Below, one piece after another: positions 6,086 through 14,214 of a stretch of DNA of 33,406 nt. The notes beneath the pieces were generated by a model. That model had not been told where the DNA came from and searched no databases. It was given only the letters and a program-made list of their open reading frames with translations. Made by a program: the position numbers and the translations under genes. Every line of letters begins with the position of its first letter. The first letter of the stretch is position 1. Source of the stretch: an uncultured Methylococcaceae bacterium (GTDB taxonomy: Bacteria > Pseudomonadota > Gammaproteobacteria > Methylococcales > Methylomonadaceae); NCBI GenBank assembly GCA_903944165.1, contig CAJAQT010000097.1:1-33406 (forward strand), written 5' to 3'.

Positions 6086-7411
6086 TTAGTTTGCAGTGAC
6101 TGGGGAGGTTGTATTTGCAACAAGTGGAATAATAAGTGTAAAAGTAGTGCCACTATTACGTTTACTGCTGACTTCAATAGTGCCATTTAATAACTGATGC
6201 ACATTGCTGTACACAATATGTAAACCTAAGCCACTGCCGCCTTTACCTAAGCGAGTGGTGAAAAAAGGATCAAAAATTTTAGCTAAATTTTGTTCATCAA
6301 TGCCAATACCGTTATCAGATAAGGTAATTAACACAGAATGATCTTCAATCGGTTTAGCCGTAAGCTGAATAGTCCCGTCTGGATTATCTTCAAAGCCATG
6401 AATAAGCGCATTTAAAGTTAAATTAGTAATAACTTGCCCTAATGGACCTGGATAACTATTAAGGTTAATCGTGTCGGGAATATCAATGGCTATCTTACAG
6501 TGGCTATGTTTAAACTGTGGTTGTAACGTTAACAGTAGCTCTTGAATATATGTTTTCAAGTTAAATTGTCGTCGATTTTCGCTAGTTTGATCAACGGCGA
6601 CTTGTTTAAAGTGAATGATTAGCTCATTAGCACGGGATAAGTTTCTATAAATCAAATCCGTTGCCTGTTCGGTTTGCTCGAGATAATTTGCCAGTACAGA
6701 GCGCCTAAGTTGACCGCTATTTACTTCTTTTAAAAATTCTTTTGTAGCATCGGAAAGCGAGGTTGCCACCGTAAAGCTATTGCCTAGTGGGGTGTTGAGT
6801 TCGTGGGCAATGCCGGCCACCAATGACCCTAGCGAGGCTAATTTTTCACTGCGCACTAAACTTGCTTGAGTGTTTTTTAAGGCGATTAAGGTTTCATTTA
6901 ATTGGCGATTAGCTTCACCTATTTCACTGCGGCGTTGTTCTTCAACTTGCTGCTCTAATTCACTATTAAGCTGCCTGTTTTCTTCTTCGATTAATTTTTT
7001 AAGGGAAATATCGCGCTGACTAAAGTGTAAAAAAATGTGCCCATCGACAATGAATTTTATTAAATGTACTTCAGAATCCCATAAACTACCATTTGGTCGT
7101 TGATGCCGCCATTCAAAGATAACCATACTTTCTGCCAGCGCTTGGCGCATAAAGTGAGGAAAGCTCTCGGCAGATAAGCGGCCATCGTATTGCTGTTCAG
7201 GTGACAATTCCACAAAGGTTTTTGATAAAAAGGTTTCCCGATCAGTAAAGCCATGTGCTTGAAGTGTTGCTACATTACATTCAATAAAAGAGCCTGAATA
7301 AGCATCCAGCACACCTAAGGAAATATGCGATTGCGTATATAAGGCATTGGTAAAGGCTTCACTTTTGCTTAAAGCTGAAACAGCTAATGTGTCTGTAGTT
7401 GCTAAAGTCAT
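6086..7411 (-). CDS. Soluble PAS-domain sensor histidine kinase
   Basis: PAS-like N-terminus, coiled coil, H-box SLVAGIAHELNTPLGN, N-box NLTLNALIHG, G1 SDNGIGID, F/G2 boxes IFDPFFTTRLGKGGSGLGLHIVY. No transmembrane segment evident. Confidence 0.9.
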   Translation of the reverse strand: MTLATTDTLAVSALSKSEAFTNALYTQSHISLGVLDAYSGSFIECNVATLQAHGFTDRETFLSKTFVELSPEQQYDGRLSAESFPHFMRQALAESMVIFEWRHQRPNGSLWDSEVHLIKFIVDGHIFLHFSQRDISLKKLIEEENRQLNSELEQQVEEQRRSEIGEANRQLNETLIALKNTQASLVRSEKLASLGSLVAGIAHELNTPLGNSFTVATSLSDATKEFLKEVNSGQLRRSVLANYLEQTEQATDLIYRNLSRANELIIHFKQVAVDQTSENRRQFNLKTYIQELLLTLQPQFKHSHCKIAIDIPDTINLNSYPGPLGQVITNLTLNALIHGFEDNPDGTIQLTAKPIEDHSVLITLSDNGIGIDEQNLAKIFDPFFTTRLGKGGSGLGLHIVYSNVHQLLNGTIEVSSKRNSGTTFTLIIPLVANTTSPVTAN

Positions 7412-7471: not shown

Positions 7472-9712
7472 TTAAGATGGATGACTGTGTACCCATGTTT
7501 GTAGCCAACTTTTTAAATCAGTTGCAGTCATAGGTTTGGCGTACAAGTAACCTTGCGCCTCCTGACAACCCAAGGATAATAATCGATTTGCTTGAAATTC
7601 ATTTTCAACACCTTCGGCAATAACCCTAATATCCAAACTTTTGCTTAAGCGTATAACAAGATCAGCAATTCTAGCTTCATCGTTGTCGTTAGAAATGGTC
7701 ATGATAAAAGAGCGATCAATTTTAACGCGGTCTACGGGCAGACCTTCTAAATAAGACAAACACGAAAAGCCAGTGCCAAAGTCATCAATGGCAATGCTTA
7801 TCCCTAATGCTCTGATTTCTCGTAAGGTATGTTCAACCAAGGATTGATCCATCATTGCCACAGATTCGGTGATTTCCAACTCTATTAAGCGAGGATTAAC
7901 GGCGCTTTCTTCTAAGCATTGTCTGACACTAGCGAGAAAGTTAGGCATACGAAATTGCACTACCGATACATTTATTGATACGGTAATATCTTCCCAACCC
8001 TCAGCTTCGAGTTGTTGAGCAAGCTTAATAGATTCGCGCAAAATCCATAAACCCATGGGCACGATTAAGCCTGATTTTTCGGCGAGTGGAATAAATCGAT
8101 CAGGTGAAATAAATTCACCTTCTTTAGTACGCCAGCGCATTAAGGCTTCACAGCCAATTACACGTTTCGTGTACATATTAATTTGTGGTTGAAATAAGGG
8201 AAATAAGAGACCCTGTTCAAAATCAATCAATAATTTGTGTAGTAAATGAGTTCGTTCTTTGGCTTTAAAACCAATATCATTGGTATAGTACGCGTCGCTG
8301 TTAAGGCCAGATTCTTTAGCTAATTTACGTGCAATACTGGCATTTTTTAACACCGACTGACCATCTGGATTAGAATCACGTAAATTCACGATGCCAGTAC
8401 TGATAGGCACAACGTGATTCATATCTTCAATACGGAAGTTTTTTTCGAAACAAGGGCGAATTAAATGCGTTTGTAAATCGATAGTTTTACCTAACATACC
8501 AAAGGCATCGCCAGAAATTCTTGCAATCAGACACTGTTTACCAAAATTATCATGTAAGCGATAGGCTAAAGCCTCGAGTAAACGATCGCCGTAGTTATAT
8601 CCAAAGGCATTGTTAATCTCTGCAAATTGATCAATATCAATTTGCATCACGCAGTATTCATCAGCTTCGCCAGATTTAAAGCAGTCATTAATTGCTTCAA
8701 TAAAGGCTGTTCGATTAGGTAAGTTAACAAGCCGATCAAAGTATGCAAAGTCTTTTAAGCGCGCAATAAGATGAATGTTTTCGGCGCACACCGAGACATT
8801 GCTACAAAAAACTTTAAGCAACTCTTGGTTTAAATGATTTGGGGATTTATTGGATTTAACAAATACAGCAAAATGTTTGTTGTCACGTATGGGAAAATAT
8901 AACACCAGATATTCTTTAGCGAAGAGATGTTCGTGATGGGTTAAACAATGCGCTAAGCCATCTCGAATAATACTGTCATCAATTTCATTTAAACGGCGTT
9001 GAATAAGACTTTGAAAACGTCCAGCTGCAGCGATGATTACATAATCAGGAGCGGCTGAGGATTCATTTAATGTTGATTGCGCACATAATAAGCCTTCAGG
9101 ATTAACACCTAAAATTGCCGCTAATTGGCGAATAACACCGCTGGCAAAATGCTGTAAACCAGTTTCTGCGATTAATTCCCTTGAGCCATGAACGATTTGC
9201 TCTAAGCCCACACGGCTGGATTCCATGCGGTTCAGTTGATCGTAACTACGAATAGCAGATAACACAGTGATAAATAATTTATTACGTGTTAATTCGGTTT
9301 TAGTTTTGTAATCGTTGATGTCGTAATCACGCACTGCATCAAGTTCTGGCGCGTAGCCTGGCTGTCCTGTACGTAAAATGATTCGGGGAAATTTAAGATT
9401 TAATTGATTGCGAATAATGCCCACTAATTGCAAACCAGAATCTTCTGCCTCCATGACAACATCAAGTAAAATAACAGCTATATCAGAGTGTTCGGATAGT
9501 AATTTAAGACAATCAGCGGTTGAGTAGGCATTAAGAAAGAGAGGTACTTTGCCAATGAGATCGGTGTTTTGCAATGCATGTTTAGTGGCAAGATGCACAT
9601 CTTGATCATCATCAACAATGAGGATTTTCCAAAAATCTAGTTGTTCAGGGCAGTCATCATCGATAAGTGGTAATTCATCGGAAAAAACAAATTCATCATT
9701 AGCTAAAGTCAT
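7472..9712 (-). CDS. Response regulator: REC-DUF3369-GGDEF(degenerate)-EAL, predicted c-di-GMP phosphodiesterase
   Basis: REC: KILIVDDDQDVH...VILLDVVME. DUF3369-like middle region. GGDEF site reads ARISGDAFGML (SGDAF, degenerate). EAL motifs intact: CEALMRWR, ELEITESVAMMD, IDDFGTGFSCLSYL, VIAEGVENEFQ. Confidence 0.9.
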   Translation of the reverse strand: MTLANDEFVFSDELPLIDDDCPEQLDFWKILIVDDDQDVHLATKHALQNTDLIGKVPLFLNAYSTADCLKLLSEHSDIAVILLDVVMEAEDSGLQLVGIIRNQLNLKFPRIILRTGQPGYAPELDAVRDYDINDYKTKTELTRNKLFITVLSAIRSYDQLNRMESSRVGLEQIVHGSRELIAETGLQHFASGVIRQLAAILGVNPEGLLCAQSTLNESSAAPDYVIIAAAGRFQSLIQRRLNEIDDSIIRDGLAHCLTHHEHLFAKEYLVLYFPIRDNKHFAVFVKSNKSPNHLNQELLKVFCSNVSVCAENIHLIARLKDFAYFDRLVNLPNRTAFIEAINDCFKSGEADEYCVMQIDIDQFAEINNAFGYNYGDRLLEALAYRLHDNFGKQCLIARISGDAFGMLGKTIDLQTHLIRPCFEKNFRIEDMNHVVPISTGIVNLRDSNPDGQSVLKNASIARKLAKESGLNSDAYYTNDIGFKAKERTHLLHKLLIDFEQGLLFPLFQPQINMYTKRVIGCEALMRWRTKEGEFISPDRFIPLAEKSGLIVPMGLWILRESIKLAQQLEAEGWEDITVSINVSVVQFRMPNFLASVRQCLEESAVNPRLIELEITESVAMMDQSLVEHTLREIRALGISIAIDDFGTGFSCLSYLEGLPVDRVKIDRSFIMTISNDNDEARIADLVIRLSKSLDIRVIAEGVENEFQANRLLSLGCQEAQGYLYAKPMTATDLKSWLQTWVHSHPS

Positions 9713-10129: not shown

Positions 10130-10468
10130 ATGAAATTACGCTACGAAACTAAGCAAGAATATGAAGTAATCATCATCGATGAAGAGCGTATTGATGCACA
10201 TAATTCTGGTGACTTAAAAGAAGCGCTTTTGCATAAAATTGAGCAAGGTAATACCCAGCTTATTGTGCATTTGGCGCAGGTACGTTTTATTGATAGCTCT
10301 GGCTTAGGGGCGTTGTTAGCGGCGTATAAAAAAATTAATGCGGGGCATGGGAAGTTGATATTAGTTCATGTACAAGCTCAGGTGCTCGCTATGTTTGAAT
10401 TAACGCGCTTAACTCAAGTGTTTGATATTTATGCTGAGTTAGACGATGTGTTGGCTCATCATGGATAG
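10130..10468 (+). CDS. STAS-domain anti-sigma factor antagonist (RsbV/SpoIIAA-like)
   Basis: 112 aa single STAS domain with phospho-Ser motif FIDSSGLGALLAAYKK. Confidence 0.92.
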   Translation: MKLRYETKQEYEVIIIDEERIDAHNSGDLKEALLHKIEQGNTQLIVHLAQVRFIDSSGLGALLAAYKKINAGHGKLILVHVQAQVLAMFELTRLTQVFDIYAELDDVLAHHG

Positions 10469-10903
10469 GTGCGTGTGATGGGCATACCCGTTTTTCAGGT
10501 TGATGTCATTATTCCAACGCAAACCAGATATTTACGTTTAATTGGTCATATTGGGGAGCGCATTGCTAATGAATTGGACACCTATACGGGTGATAAAGTC
10601 CAGCTTGCCTATGATTTAAATTTAGTCCTGACTGAAGCAACGGCGAATGCTATTAAACATGCTAAAACCGACTCACCTAAAGAAACAGTAAGGATACTTA
10701 TTCAAATCGAAGAAAATGAATTAATTATCAAGGTATTTGATCATGGTCAGGGCTTTGATTTAAAAAATGTAGAGCCTTTAGATTTTGCAAACCCACAAGA
10801 AACGGGGATGGGGCTTTTTTTTATCAAAACGTATATGGATTCGGTGCGTTATACAATGACACCAGAAGTTAATATCTTAGAAATCAGCAAAAAACTACAA
10901 TGA
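10469..10903 (+). CDS. RsbW/SpoIIAB-like serine-protein kinase (HATPase_c anti-sigma factor)
   Basis: 144 aa. N-box LVLTEATANAIKHAK, G1 VFDHGQGFD, G2 ETGMGLFFIKTYMD. Begins directly after the STAS stop codon. Confidence 0.9.
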   Translation: MRVMGIPVFQVDVIIPTQTRYLRLIGHIGERIANELDTYTGDKVQLAYDLNLVLTEATANAIKHAKTDSPKETVRILIQIEENELIIKVFDHGQGFDLKNVEPLDFANPQETGMGLFFIKTYMDSVRYTMTPEVNILEISKKLQ

Positions 10904-13900
10904 CTTCCTCTTCTACTGCTTGGCACAATGCCTGTAATCGTATCGCCACACGAGCTTTAGGTAGTGCGCAAGCGCAACCTCTTTTAGCTACGTATCGTTC
11001 ATTATTTACTAAAGAGTATCAAACGCTTATCACACCATCGTATGCTGTTCGCGATATTCTTGCGTTGCATAGCTTAGTGACTACCGATCCTCAACAGGTC
11101 AATTTGGTAAAAATTACTAAGGCGACCGAAGTATTTAGGTTACATTTTTACAGTAATACTGAACGTTATTTAGACGAGTATATTCCGTTATTAGAAAACA
11201 TCGGGTTGCGCGTGTTAGATCAAGTGCAATTTACTTGCACATATACCCAAAATGAACAGGTCATAGTGGGATATATAAAAAGTTTCACGCTTAAAGTTGG
11301 TGCCGAATTAGTGCTTGATTGGCTAAGTCTGAAGCGTTATTTACTAACGGGATTGCGTGCGATATTACGCCATCAAGTCGACAACGACGCGTTAAATAAA
11401 TTAGCTATCGTTGCTGGCTTAACGTGGCAAGCAACTGATTTAATTAGAGCTTATTGTAATTATTATCTTCAATTAGGTCATTCTACGGCACGGGACAGTG
11501 TGTACCGTGCGCTCATTAATCATCCCAAGGTTGCGGCGTGTTTGTTTCATTATTTTGATGCTCGCTTTGTGCCCAATCCTGCATGGCAGGCATTAGCCTT
11601 TAGAGAAGAGCAGTGTTTATTACCATTACGGACAGAATTATCACAACACTTAGCCAGTGTCGCTAATATTAATGAGGATCGAATTTTACGCGCTCTTTTT
11701 AATTTAATAGATGCCACGGTAAGGTCAAATTTTCATCAACGCTGCATGCAAGATGATTTTTTTATTGCGCTAAAAATAAGTAGTCTGGGCATCATCGATA
11801 TGCCATCGCCAAGACCCTGTTATGAAATTTATGTGCATGCCTATGAGATGGAAGGTATTCATTTACGTGCAGGTAAAATTGCGCGGGGAGGTATTCGTTG
11901 GTCAGATCGCCCTGATGATTTTAGAACTGAAATTTTGGGGTTAATGCAAACACAGGTCAGCAAAAATGCCTTGATTATTCCAACGGGCGCAAAAGGTGGC
12001 TTTATTGTAAAACCCAATGCTCAATTTAGTGACTATCAGGTTGCAGGGCAACACGCGTATTTACGCTTGATAACAGGCTTATTAGAGTTGACCGATAATC
12101 ACACTCTCCACGATGTGGATAAGACAACAGCCGTTATTTATGATGATCCAGATAGTTATCTAGTGGTCGCCGCAGATAAAGGTACGGCACATTTTTCAGA
12201 TAGTGCCAATCAATTGGCAAATCAGTATGGCTTTTGGTTGCATGATGCCTTTGCTAGTGGCGGTTCACAAGGTTACGATCATAAAGCCTTGGGCATCACT
12301 GCGCGTGGTGCTTGGGAGTGTATTCGTCGACATTTTTATGAGTTAGGCAAGGATATTCAAACAGAGGCTATTTCAGTGTTGGGTATCGGCAGTATGGATG
12401 GTGATGTTTTTGGCAATGGCATGCTGCTTTCTCGCCACCTTCAGTTACGTGCTGCGTTTAGCGGACAACATATTTTTATTGATCCTACGCCATCTCCACT
12501 AGCCTTTGCAGAGCGGCAACGCTTATTCATGTTGCCTAGGTCCAGTTGGTTAGATTATGCGCCTGCGTTAATTTCTAAAGGTGGCGGTGTGTATTCTCGT
12601 TATGACAAAGAAATTATCTTGTCTGAAGAGGTAAAAAATTGGTTAGGTATTCGTTATCACAGCGTAGATGGTGAGTCGCTAATTCGTTATTTATTAACTG
12701 CATCGGTGGATTTACTTTGGCTTGGGGGCATTGGTACGTATGTTAAATGCAGTGAAGAAAAACACCTCGAAGTTGGGGACAGAAGCAATGACAGTGTGCG
12801 TGTGAATGCGAATGAAATTAAAGCGCGGGTGGTTGGCGAAGGGGCTAATTTAGGGTTTACACAAAAAGCACGTATTGAATATGCCCTTGCAGGTGGTCGG
12901 ATAAATACCGATGCAGTGGATAATTCCGCGGGTGTGGATACTTCTGATCATGAAGTTAATCTTAAAATCATGCTGATGGCGTTGCATAAAAAAGGGCTTA
13001 TTGCTGATTATCAACCCTTATTTGAAGCAATGACCGAGTCTGTTTGTGAGTTAGTTTTAGCCAATAATGTCGCGCAAAGTCGTTGTCTGTCATTAGAGCA
13101 AATTCGCTGTCAACAGGCCCTCGATAACTTTTTGCAAGTGGCTGATGTACTTGAAGCGTCGGGGTTTTTAGATAAAACCGTAGAGGCTTTTCCGCAGACT
13201 AAGCAATTGCTGACACGTCGCCAAGCGTGCTTAACGCGTCCAGAATTAGCTGTGTTAATGGCGTCGGCGAAGCGTTTTCTTACTCATATTTTGGTGCAAA
13301 ATACGGCGTCTTTACCAGCGGACTATTATGCTGACGTGTTAGCCTCTTATTTCCCAGCGCCATTTGTTGAGGCGTTCCGTAGACATTTAGCAAGTCATCC
13401 TTTAGCTCAGCACATTCAAGCAACGTTACTAAGTAATCATATAATCAACTATCAGGGCTGTAGTTTTTTATTACTTAATCAAACGCAAAATCCTGCTAGA
13501 TTAATGGAGGCAATCGCCAGTTATGTATTGTATGAACAGGCGTTAGAGATTAAGACCGTTCGAGCGGAACTTCATAAACAGACTAACGTTAACAATGCCA
13601 AAGAAATAGTGGCGTATTATCATGATTTATTAGTTATCGAAGATCGCTTATTGGGCTTTTGTCAATGGCATATCAACCACCATGTAAGCGTGTATCCAGA
13701 TACTCACACGCAGGCTATTTACGCCGCTTATTATGCTGAATATCGCCTGTACAGCGCAACGTCAACGGCATTATCTTCAAGCCAAGCGCACTGTAATATC
13801 AAGCAAGCACTACAGCTTATAAATGGATGTGAAGATTTGCCTTTAATTGCCCAATTATGCCAAGACACCGCACAGCCATTTAGCGCGCAATGGGTTCTTT

Positions 13901-14214
13901 TTAACGAGGTTGTGGCAATGTTGGATTTATCTGCTATTCAAGCCGCATTGTTTAGGTTTGCTGTGAAAGATCAGTGGGAGGCTAAAGTCCATCGTTTGTT
14001 GTGTGATGAGTTAAAATTAAGCGTGGTAAGCTTGAGTCAAAAATTGAGTTATTCGGCATCTGCGCCAAGGTCAAGCTGGCGTGATTATTTTCAATTACCA
14101 GAAAATAGTGCGGCGTGGCAAAGCTATCAACGTGTGCATCACGAAATTTGTCAAGCCACGCCGATGAGTTTGTTCCCTTATTTGGTATTAGCTGAGGAAT
14201 TAAAAAAATTATAA
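10900..14214 (+). CDS. NAD-specific glutamate dehydrogenase, large type (Bac_GDH family), N-terminally short form
   Basis: RGGIRWSDRPDDFRTEILGLMQTQVSKNALIIPTGAKGGFIVKP, GFWLHDAFASGGSQGYDHKALGITARGAWECIRRHF, GIGSMDGDVFGNGMLLS, IFIDPTPSP, VVGEGANLGFTQKARIEYAL. Start ATG overlaps the RsbW stop (ATGA). 1104 aa versus about 1600 aa for the canonical large class. Confidence 0.93.
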   Translation: MTSSSTAWHNACNRIATRALGSAQAQPLLATYRSLFTKEYQTLITPSYAVRDILALHSLVTTDPQQVNLVKITKATEVFRLHFYSNTERYLDEYIPLLENIGLRVLDQVQFTCTYTQNEQVIVGYIKSFTLKVGAELVLDWLSLKRYLLTGLRAILRHQVDNDALNKLAIVAGLTWQATDLIRAYCNYYLQLGHSTARDSVYRALINHPKVAACLFHYFDARFVPNPAWQALAFREEQCLLPLRTELSQHLASVANINEDRILRALFNLIDATVRSNFHQRCMQDDFFIALKISSLGIIDMPSPRPCYEIYVHAYEMEGIHLRAGKIARGGIRWSDRPDDFRTEILGLMQTQVSKNALIIPTGAKGGFIVKPNAQFSDYQVAGQHAYLRLITGLLELTDNHTLHDVDKTTAVIYDDPDSYLVVAADKGTAHFSDSANQLANQYGFWLHDAFASGGSQGYDHKALGITARGAWECIRRHFYELGKDIQTEAISVLGIGSMDGDVFGNGMLLSRHLQLRAAFSGQHIFIDPTPSPLAFAERQRLFMLPRSSWLDYAPALISKGGGVYSRYDKEIILSEEVKNWLGIRYHSVDGESLIRYLLTASVDLLWLGGIGTYVKCSEEKHLEVGDRSNDSVRVNANEIKARVVGEGANLGFTQKARIEYALAGGRINTDAVDNSAGVDTSDHEVNLKIMLMALHKKGLIADYQPLFEAMTESVCELVLANNVAQSRCLSLEQIRCQQALDNFLQVADVLEASGFLDKTVEAFPQTKQLLTRRQACLTRPELAVLMASAKRFLTHILVQNTASLPADYYADVLASYFPAPFVEAFRRHLASHPLAQHIQATLLSNHIINYQGCSFLLLNQTQNPARLMEAIASYVLYEQALEIKTVRAELHKQTNVNNAKEIVAYYHDLLVIEDRLLGFCQWHINHHVSVYPDTHTQAIYAAYYAEYRLYSATSTALSSSQAHCNIKQALQLINGCEDLPLIAQLCQDTAQPFSAQWVLFNEVVAMLDLSAIQAALFRFAVKDQWEAKVHRLLCDELKLSVVSLSQKLSYSASAPRSSWRDYFQLPENSAAWQSYQRVHHEICQATPMSLFPYLVLAEELKKL

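Follow-up and report, generated by a model that had tools for sequence, protein, structure and literature searches.

What does a pair of RsbV- and RsbW-like proteins control when their genes run directly into that of a metabolic dehydrogenase? This question is raised by contig CAJAQT010000097.1 of an uncultured Methylococcaceae bacterium, whose 33,406 nucleotides, hereafter called the window, were analysed as a whole. On the forward strand, a gene coding for an STAS-only protein (positions 10130 to 10468) is followed by genes for an RsbW/SpoIIAB-like serine kinase (10469 to 10903) and for a large NAD-dependent glutamate dehydrogenase (GDH; 10900 to 14214). A preliminary description of the locus had presented GDH as the fixed partner of the pair. 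Co-occurrence and gene order support a specific link between them, as well as an output other than a sigma factor.

Co-inheritance of the pair with class-A glutamate dehydrogenase

The GDHs of 101 genomes from the GTDB family of the window fall into two classes, with 50-85% (class A) or 37-48% (class B) identity to the GDH of the window. Using a cut-off of at least 55% identity for kinase orthologues, we found class-A GDH and the kinase in exactly the same 56 genomes, none having just one of them. The kinase was found in 0 of the other 45 genomes, including 11 with class-B GDH alone (hypergeometric p 9e-30, phylogeny ignored). The kinase gene is directly upstream of 55 of the 57 class-A GDH genes, on the same strand, and the genomes of the two exceptions (G042 and G097) carry the STAS-kinase pair elsewhere. 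Class-B GDH was never found beside the pair, which is linked to class A only in the four genomes that hold both classes (G043, G045, G084 and G098). The linkage between kinase and GDH is thus far beyond chance.

We extended the analysis to 201 Methylococcales genomes, 127 of them in the family of the window, and included the PAS-SpoIIE phosphatase described below. GDH, kinase and phosphatase occur together in 89 genomes and all are missing from 90; the remainder have kinase and phosphatase (20), GDH alone (1) or phosphatase alone (1). Within the family of the window, 63 genomes have the full set, 64 have none of it and no genome has a partial set, with both states found inside six genera. The pair is split from GDH in G042, G097, G127 and G145, each of which retains both parts. 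The neighbourhood survey that the preliminary description had named as a test shows that the pairing is not confined to one genome, as it is conserved in three Methylococcales families. Among 365 Gammaproteobacteria sampled from other orders, none had the kinase (E <= 1e-18), and the pair is absent beside the nearest non-methanotroph GDHs, which are Desulfuromonadales-type proteins of ~1600 residues. One genome (G044) harbours two copies of the whole module, with STAS, kinase and GDH genes and a nearby phosphatase gene (loci L176 and L175).

An unbiased count of gene families around 25 kinase loci (23 groups) identified GDH, STAS, kinase and phosphatase (6 groups) as the broadly recurring neighbours. 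One response-regulator/EAL-like cluster, possibly of paralogues, is a further repeated neighbour of the kinase (6 groups). No sigma factor is present in the window, as had been described, and none recurs near the kinase or phosphatase loci; unlinked sigma factors were not searched for.

The evolutionary rates of the components covary. Branch lengths were compared on the fixed topology of sucA, which codes for the E1 component of 2-oxoglutarate dehydrogenase, and the sucA contribution was removed. The partial r was 0.74 for kinase and GDH (38 genomes), no weaker than for kinase and STAS (0.52), and reached 0.80 for GDH and the mostly unlinked phosphatase (21 genomes). With sucA as the single control gene, these values are supportive only.

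Gene anatomy and a candidate phosphatase

The three open reading frames are intact, and the signatures of their products bear out the arrangement initially reported, namely an STAS protein with a DSSGLG motif and an RsbW-like HATPase directly upstream of a Bac_GDH-family enzyme. The RsbV/SpoIIAA-like antagonist has 112 residues (PF01740, 3.7e-19; TIGR00377 above cut-off) and matches TM1442, SpoIIAA and RsbV in the PDB. Its motif spans D55-S56-S57-G-L-G, with S56 as the expected phospho-acceptor; S56 and S57 are invariant in 12 relatives, and the entire motif is invariant in alignments of 12 and 31 relatives. The kinase belongs to HATPase_c_2 (PF13581, 7.6e-21, above cut-off), and its residues E56, N60, D91, G93, G95, G113 and G115 are invariant in relatives, so that the N, G1 and G2 boxes of GHKL proteins are intact. 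It matches RsbW (6m36) at 2.9e-12 in profile comparisons and SpoIIAB in Foldseek (TMt 0.76-0.78). The RsbW and SpoIIAB models match it at 46-53 bits, under their equivalog cut-offs of 135-155. Only STAS and HATPase domains were matched in the two proteins, and no FHA domain is among them. The third protein is a short-form, class-A GDH of 1104 residues (PF05088, 6.4e-209; PF21074 above cut-off).

At the junction with GDH, the TGA stop of the kinase gene overlaps the ATG start in an ATGA sequence (10900 to 10903, forward strand) indicative of translational coupling, as previously noted. The STAS and kinase genes had been said to abut, and this part is to be revised. The kinase would have 144 residues from GTG 10469 and 141 from ATG 10478, and the latter is the more probable start because relatives start there and the STAS stop overlaps the ribosome-binding site in most of them. 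The two genes are thus probably coupled across 9 nucleotides. In the window, the probable ribosome-binding site GGATAGG (10463 to 10469, forward strand) overlaps the TAG stop of the STAS gene (10466 to 10468). The usual layout in relatives places this stop inside the consensus TAGAGG, with the kinase start 8-9 nucleotides after it. Over the region corresponding to 10463-10480, the stop is TAG in 59 of 83 STAS-kinase pairs, overlapping the ribosome-binding site of the kinase gene, and the spacing is mostly fixed at 8-9 nucleotides. Programmed read-through of the conserved TAG was ruled out as its explanation, since the codon overlaps the ribosome-binding site and, in many pairs, the two genes stand in different reading frames. 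In an AlphaFold model of the read-through chain, both domains fold (pLDDT 80) with no confident docking (pTM 0.49), which the artificial short linker may hinder. Similarly, an open frame of 1293 residues in G004 is not a natural kinase-GDH fusion, because a TAG separates the two.

The window itself encodes no SpoIIE phosphatase, in agreement with the preliminary description, but the genome does not leave the switch without one. It encodes three proteins of this type, the third of which is a PAS-SpoIIE (RsbU/RsbP-like) protein found as an orphan on contig C83. Orthologues of this protein are present in all 109 kinase-bearing genomes of the order. In relatives its gene often adjoins that of GDH, and G043 and G084 have four-gene STAS-kinase-GDH-phosphatase operons. 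The phosphatase gene is found at no more than 10 kb from the kinase or GDH genes in only 28 of the 110 phosphatase-bearing genomes, and therefore the joint presence or absence of phosphatase and kinase is not a linkage effect. We infer that the PAS-SpoIIE protein is the cognate phosphatase, which would complete the switch.

Two self-contained partner-switch systems are found elsewhere in the same genome (loci L108/L109). Contig C114 codes for a CBS-SpoIIE-HATPase protein and a multi-STAS protein, and contig C129 carries a SiaA/SiaB/SiaC-like cluster. At another locus (L178, genome G215), a phosphatase gene beside the GDH operon is followed by genes for a sensor kinase with a PAS domain and for an NtrC-like regulator, as read by eye, a hint of nitrogen control.

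The target of the switch

The explanation that we favour, giving it slightly better than an even chance, is a complete partner switch made up of the STAS antagonist, the kinase and the C83 sensor phosphatase, with GDH as its dedicated client. Its output would be the flux between 2-oxoglutarate and glutamate, not a sigma factor. Judging from homologous systems, the kinase would use ATP to phosphorylate S56 of the STAS protein, and the phosphorylated STAS protein would release the kinase. The free kinase, or less likely the free STAS protein, might then bind GDH and modify its activity, most simply by inhibition. Upon sensing its signal, the PAS-SpoIIE phosphatase would dephosphorylate the STAS protein, which would recapture the kinase and release GDH. 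Should GDH indeed be the client, the partner switch would govern an enzyme of central metabolism, whereas the outputs described in the literature consulted are sigma factors, signalling enzymes or unknown targets.

Several points weigh against this explanation. The physical contact between kinase and GDH is itself inferred, as is any direct control of GDH through phosphorylation or binding. That no sigma factor is encoded nearby counts for little, because partner switches are known to act on sigma factors from distant loci. The rate covariation, corrected with one control gene, may stem from the shared inheritance of linked genes. G105 retains class-A GDH without the module and, conversely, the 20 genomes with kinase and phosphatase that are devoid of class-A GDH, all outside the family of the window, indicate that GDH is not the sole reason for the module.

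The gene neighbourhoods of the module point to a possible second client. In families f2 and f5, the module adjoins sucA. The kinase gene overlaps sucA by ATGA in G104, the STAS, kinase and phosphatase genes and sucA are neighbours in G114, and the phosphatase gene adjoins sucA in G108 and G101. As sucA is near-universal (198 of 201 genomes), its co-occurrence with the module is uninformative and adjacency alone counts. This adjacency was noticed post hoc and probably has one origin. Other neighbours of the GDH-less module vary, and include genes for an oligopeptidase, purN and TrkH, among others. In the kinase tree, the members of family f4 without GDH nest among GDH-linked ones, and thus the loss of GDH in that family looks secondary. 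GDH would therefore be a client in most lineages but probably not the only one, and in some lineages 2-oxoglutarate dehydrogenase E1 seems to be the client or one of several. Of the fixed partnership initially proposed, the specific link holds (55 of 57 class-A genes), but GDH is unlikely to be the sole target. Separately, the sucA matches of family f7 genomes (e.g. G117, G120 and G132) contain an in-frame TAA, perhaps because the match overruns the gene end.

Among the alternatives, an ordinary partner switch acting on a remote sigma factor, or on another regulator of transcription or translation, survives best. GDH would then be a co-transcribed member of the regulon, and the whole set would be inherited as one metabolic programme. 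This is unlikely, yet it deserves consideration. The nearest solved relatives of the kinase are the anti-sigma kinases RsbW and SpoIIAB, the targets listed in the literature consulted are mostly sigma factors or unknown, and RpoS is described in outline as being controlled by HsbR-HsbA (PMC6482189). Retention of the module in the 20 genomes without class-A GDH fits such a role as well. However, no recurring sigma factor emerged from the neighbourhoods, class-B GDH is never linked, and in the 127 genomes of the window's family the kinase is never found without class-A GDH, even when their genes are apart.

Control might also run in the opposite direction, with GDH as a trigger enzyme. The kinase or the STAS protein would sense whether GDH is occupied by glutamate, 2-oxoglutarate or NAD(H), and would in turn act on another target. 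There is a precedent for a metabolic enzyme as a nitrogen sensor, that of GDH and GltC in Bacillus. Moreover, the chlamydial RsbU senses 2-oxoglutarate, and thus partner switches can read this metabolic node (PMC11619594), and a trigger role would account for the module outliving the loss of GDH. Nevertheless, the switch already has a sensory input in the PAS-phosphatase and no other output came to light, making this scheme quite improbable.

Lastly, passive hitchhiking of functionally unrelated genes in an operon moved or lost as a block would require no more than single events deleting all three adjacent genes, but it was already disfavoured and is very improbable, given that the phosphatase gene is unlinked in about three-quarters of its genomes and yet matches the kinase gene in presence and absence (110 genomes), that the separated parts are kept in the four genomes with split modules, and that the genes show translational coupling and rate covariation.

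Relation to known systems

The RsbU/RsbV/RsbW-sigma B and SpoIIE/SpoIIAA/SpoIIAB-sigma F switches of Bacillus resemble the module of the window in their three protein families, their nucleotide-binding and phospho-Ser motifs, and the order of the STAS and kinase genes. They differ in that the third co-inherited gene here codes for a metabolic dehydrogenase and the phosphatase gene is usually unlinked. From its motifs, the pair is predicted to work like RsbV/RsbW, but we do not count it as an anti-sigma system because the kinase scores far under the equivalog cut-offs for RsbW and SpoIIAB and no sigma factor is linked to it.

By analogy, the nearest functional counterpart of the putative switch is GarA/OdhI, controlled by PknG/PknB in Actinobacteria, a phosphorylation-dependent binder that targets a large NAD-GDH and 2-oxoglutarate dehydrogenase E1 and inhibits these enzymes by binding (PMC5448819). 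The similarity is one of outline. GarA, an FHA protein, is a substrate of Hanks-type kinases, and these folds are unrelated to those of the STAS protein and the GHKL kinase. The tie of the module to both enzymes is one of genomic association. The closest precedent for an enzyme as the output of a switch is SiaC-SiaD. In the SiaABCD system of Pseudomonas aeruginosa, as outlined in two reports, a SpoIIE-type phosphatase and a kinase set the state of a small partner, SiaC, which activates SiaD by binding (PMC8457831, PMC7647112). Unlike the STAS protein of the window, SiaC is not a classical STAS protein, and SiaD is a signalling enzyme outside central metabolism. The literature that we searched, with subscription journals outside its coverage, holds no report of a partner switch associated with GDH.

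The GDH of the window, whose nearest named record is that of Methylococcaceae bacterium PowLak16_MAG1 (85% identity), aligns from about residue 470 of homologues of 1565-1600 residues. It is devoid of their ~465 N-terminal residues, the ACT region, which outgroup GDHs and several class-A GDHs keep. Its sole PDB relative is the mycobacterial L-GDH180 (7a1d), over residues 479-1363 of the latter. The catalytic and C-terminal parts of the two proteins are homologous, and the segment missing from the window GDH (~480 residues in L-GDH180) holds ACT and PAS domains proposed to be metabolic sensors (PMC8175468). Truncation to the short form happened 2 to 4 times, with a single origin within the family not rejected (p-AU 0.26). 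Loss of the ACT segment in module-bearing lineages fits the replacement of intrinsic allosteric control by a separate regulator, an idea qualified by the existence of long GDHs with the module. For the same reason, the proposal that the pair replaces the ACT segment, based on long GDHs lacking it, was ruled out, as long GDHs too have the pair upstream. One class-A GDH is encoded as two open reading frames of 622 and 462 residues (locus L103, genome G025), reflecting an assembly frameshift or a decaying gene.

It is possible, though doubtful, that Methylococcales evolved a counterpart of GarA/OdhI from an STAS/RsbW switch, in which one phosphorylation-controlled binder would set the activity of both GDH and 2-oxoglutarate dehydrogenase and so act as a gate at the 2-oxoglutarate node, GDH having shed its ACT segment in several lineages. 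Extracts of Methylomicrobium alcaliphilum show no detectable 2-oxoglutarate dehydrogenase activity despite a genome-predicted complex, and the metabolism of this species seems to branch at oxoglutarate (PMC5802761). A reversible protein-binding block at this node would account for missing activities of this kind and, if real, would offer a lever for engineering nitrogen and carbon flux in methanotrophs.

Divergently upstream of the operon, the window encodes a response regulator that carries DUF3369, GGDEF and EAL domains (7472 to 9712, reverse strand) and an adjoining PAS histidine kinase (6086 to 7411).

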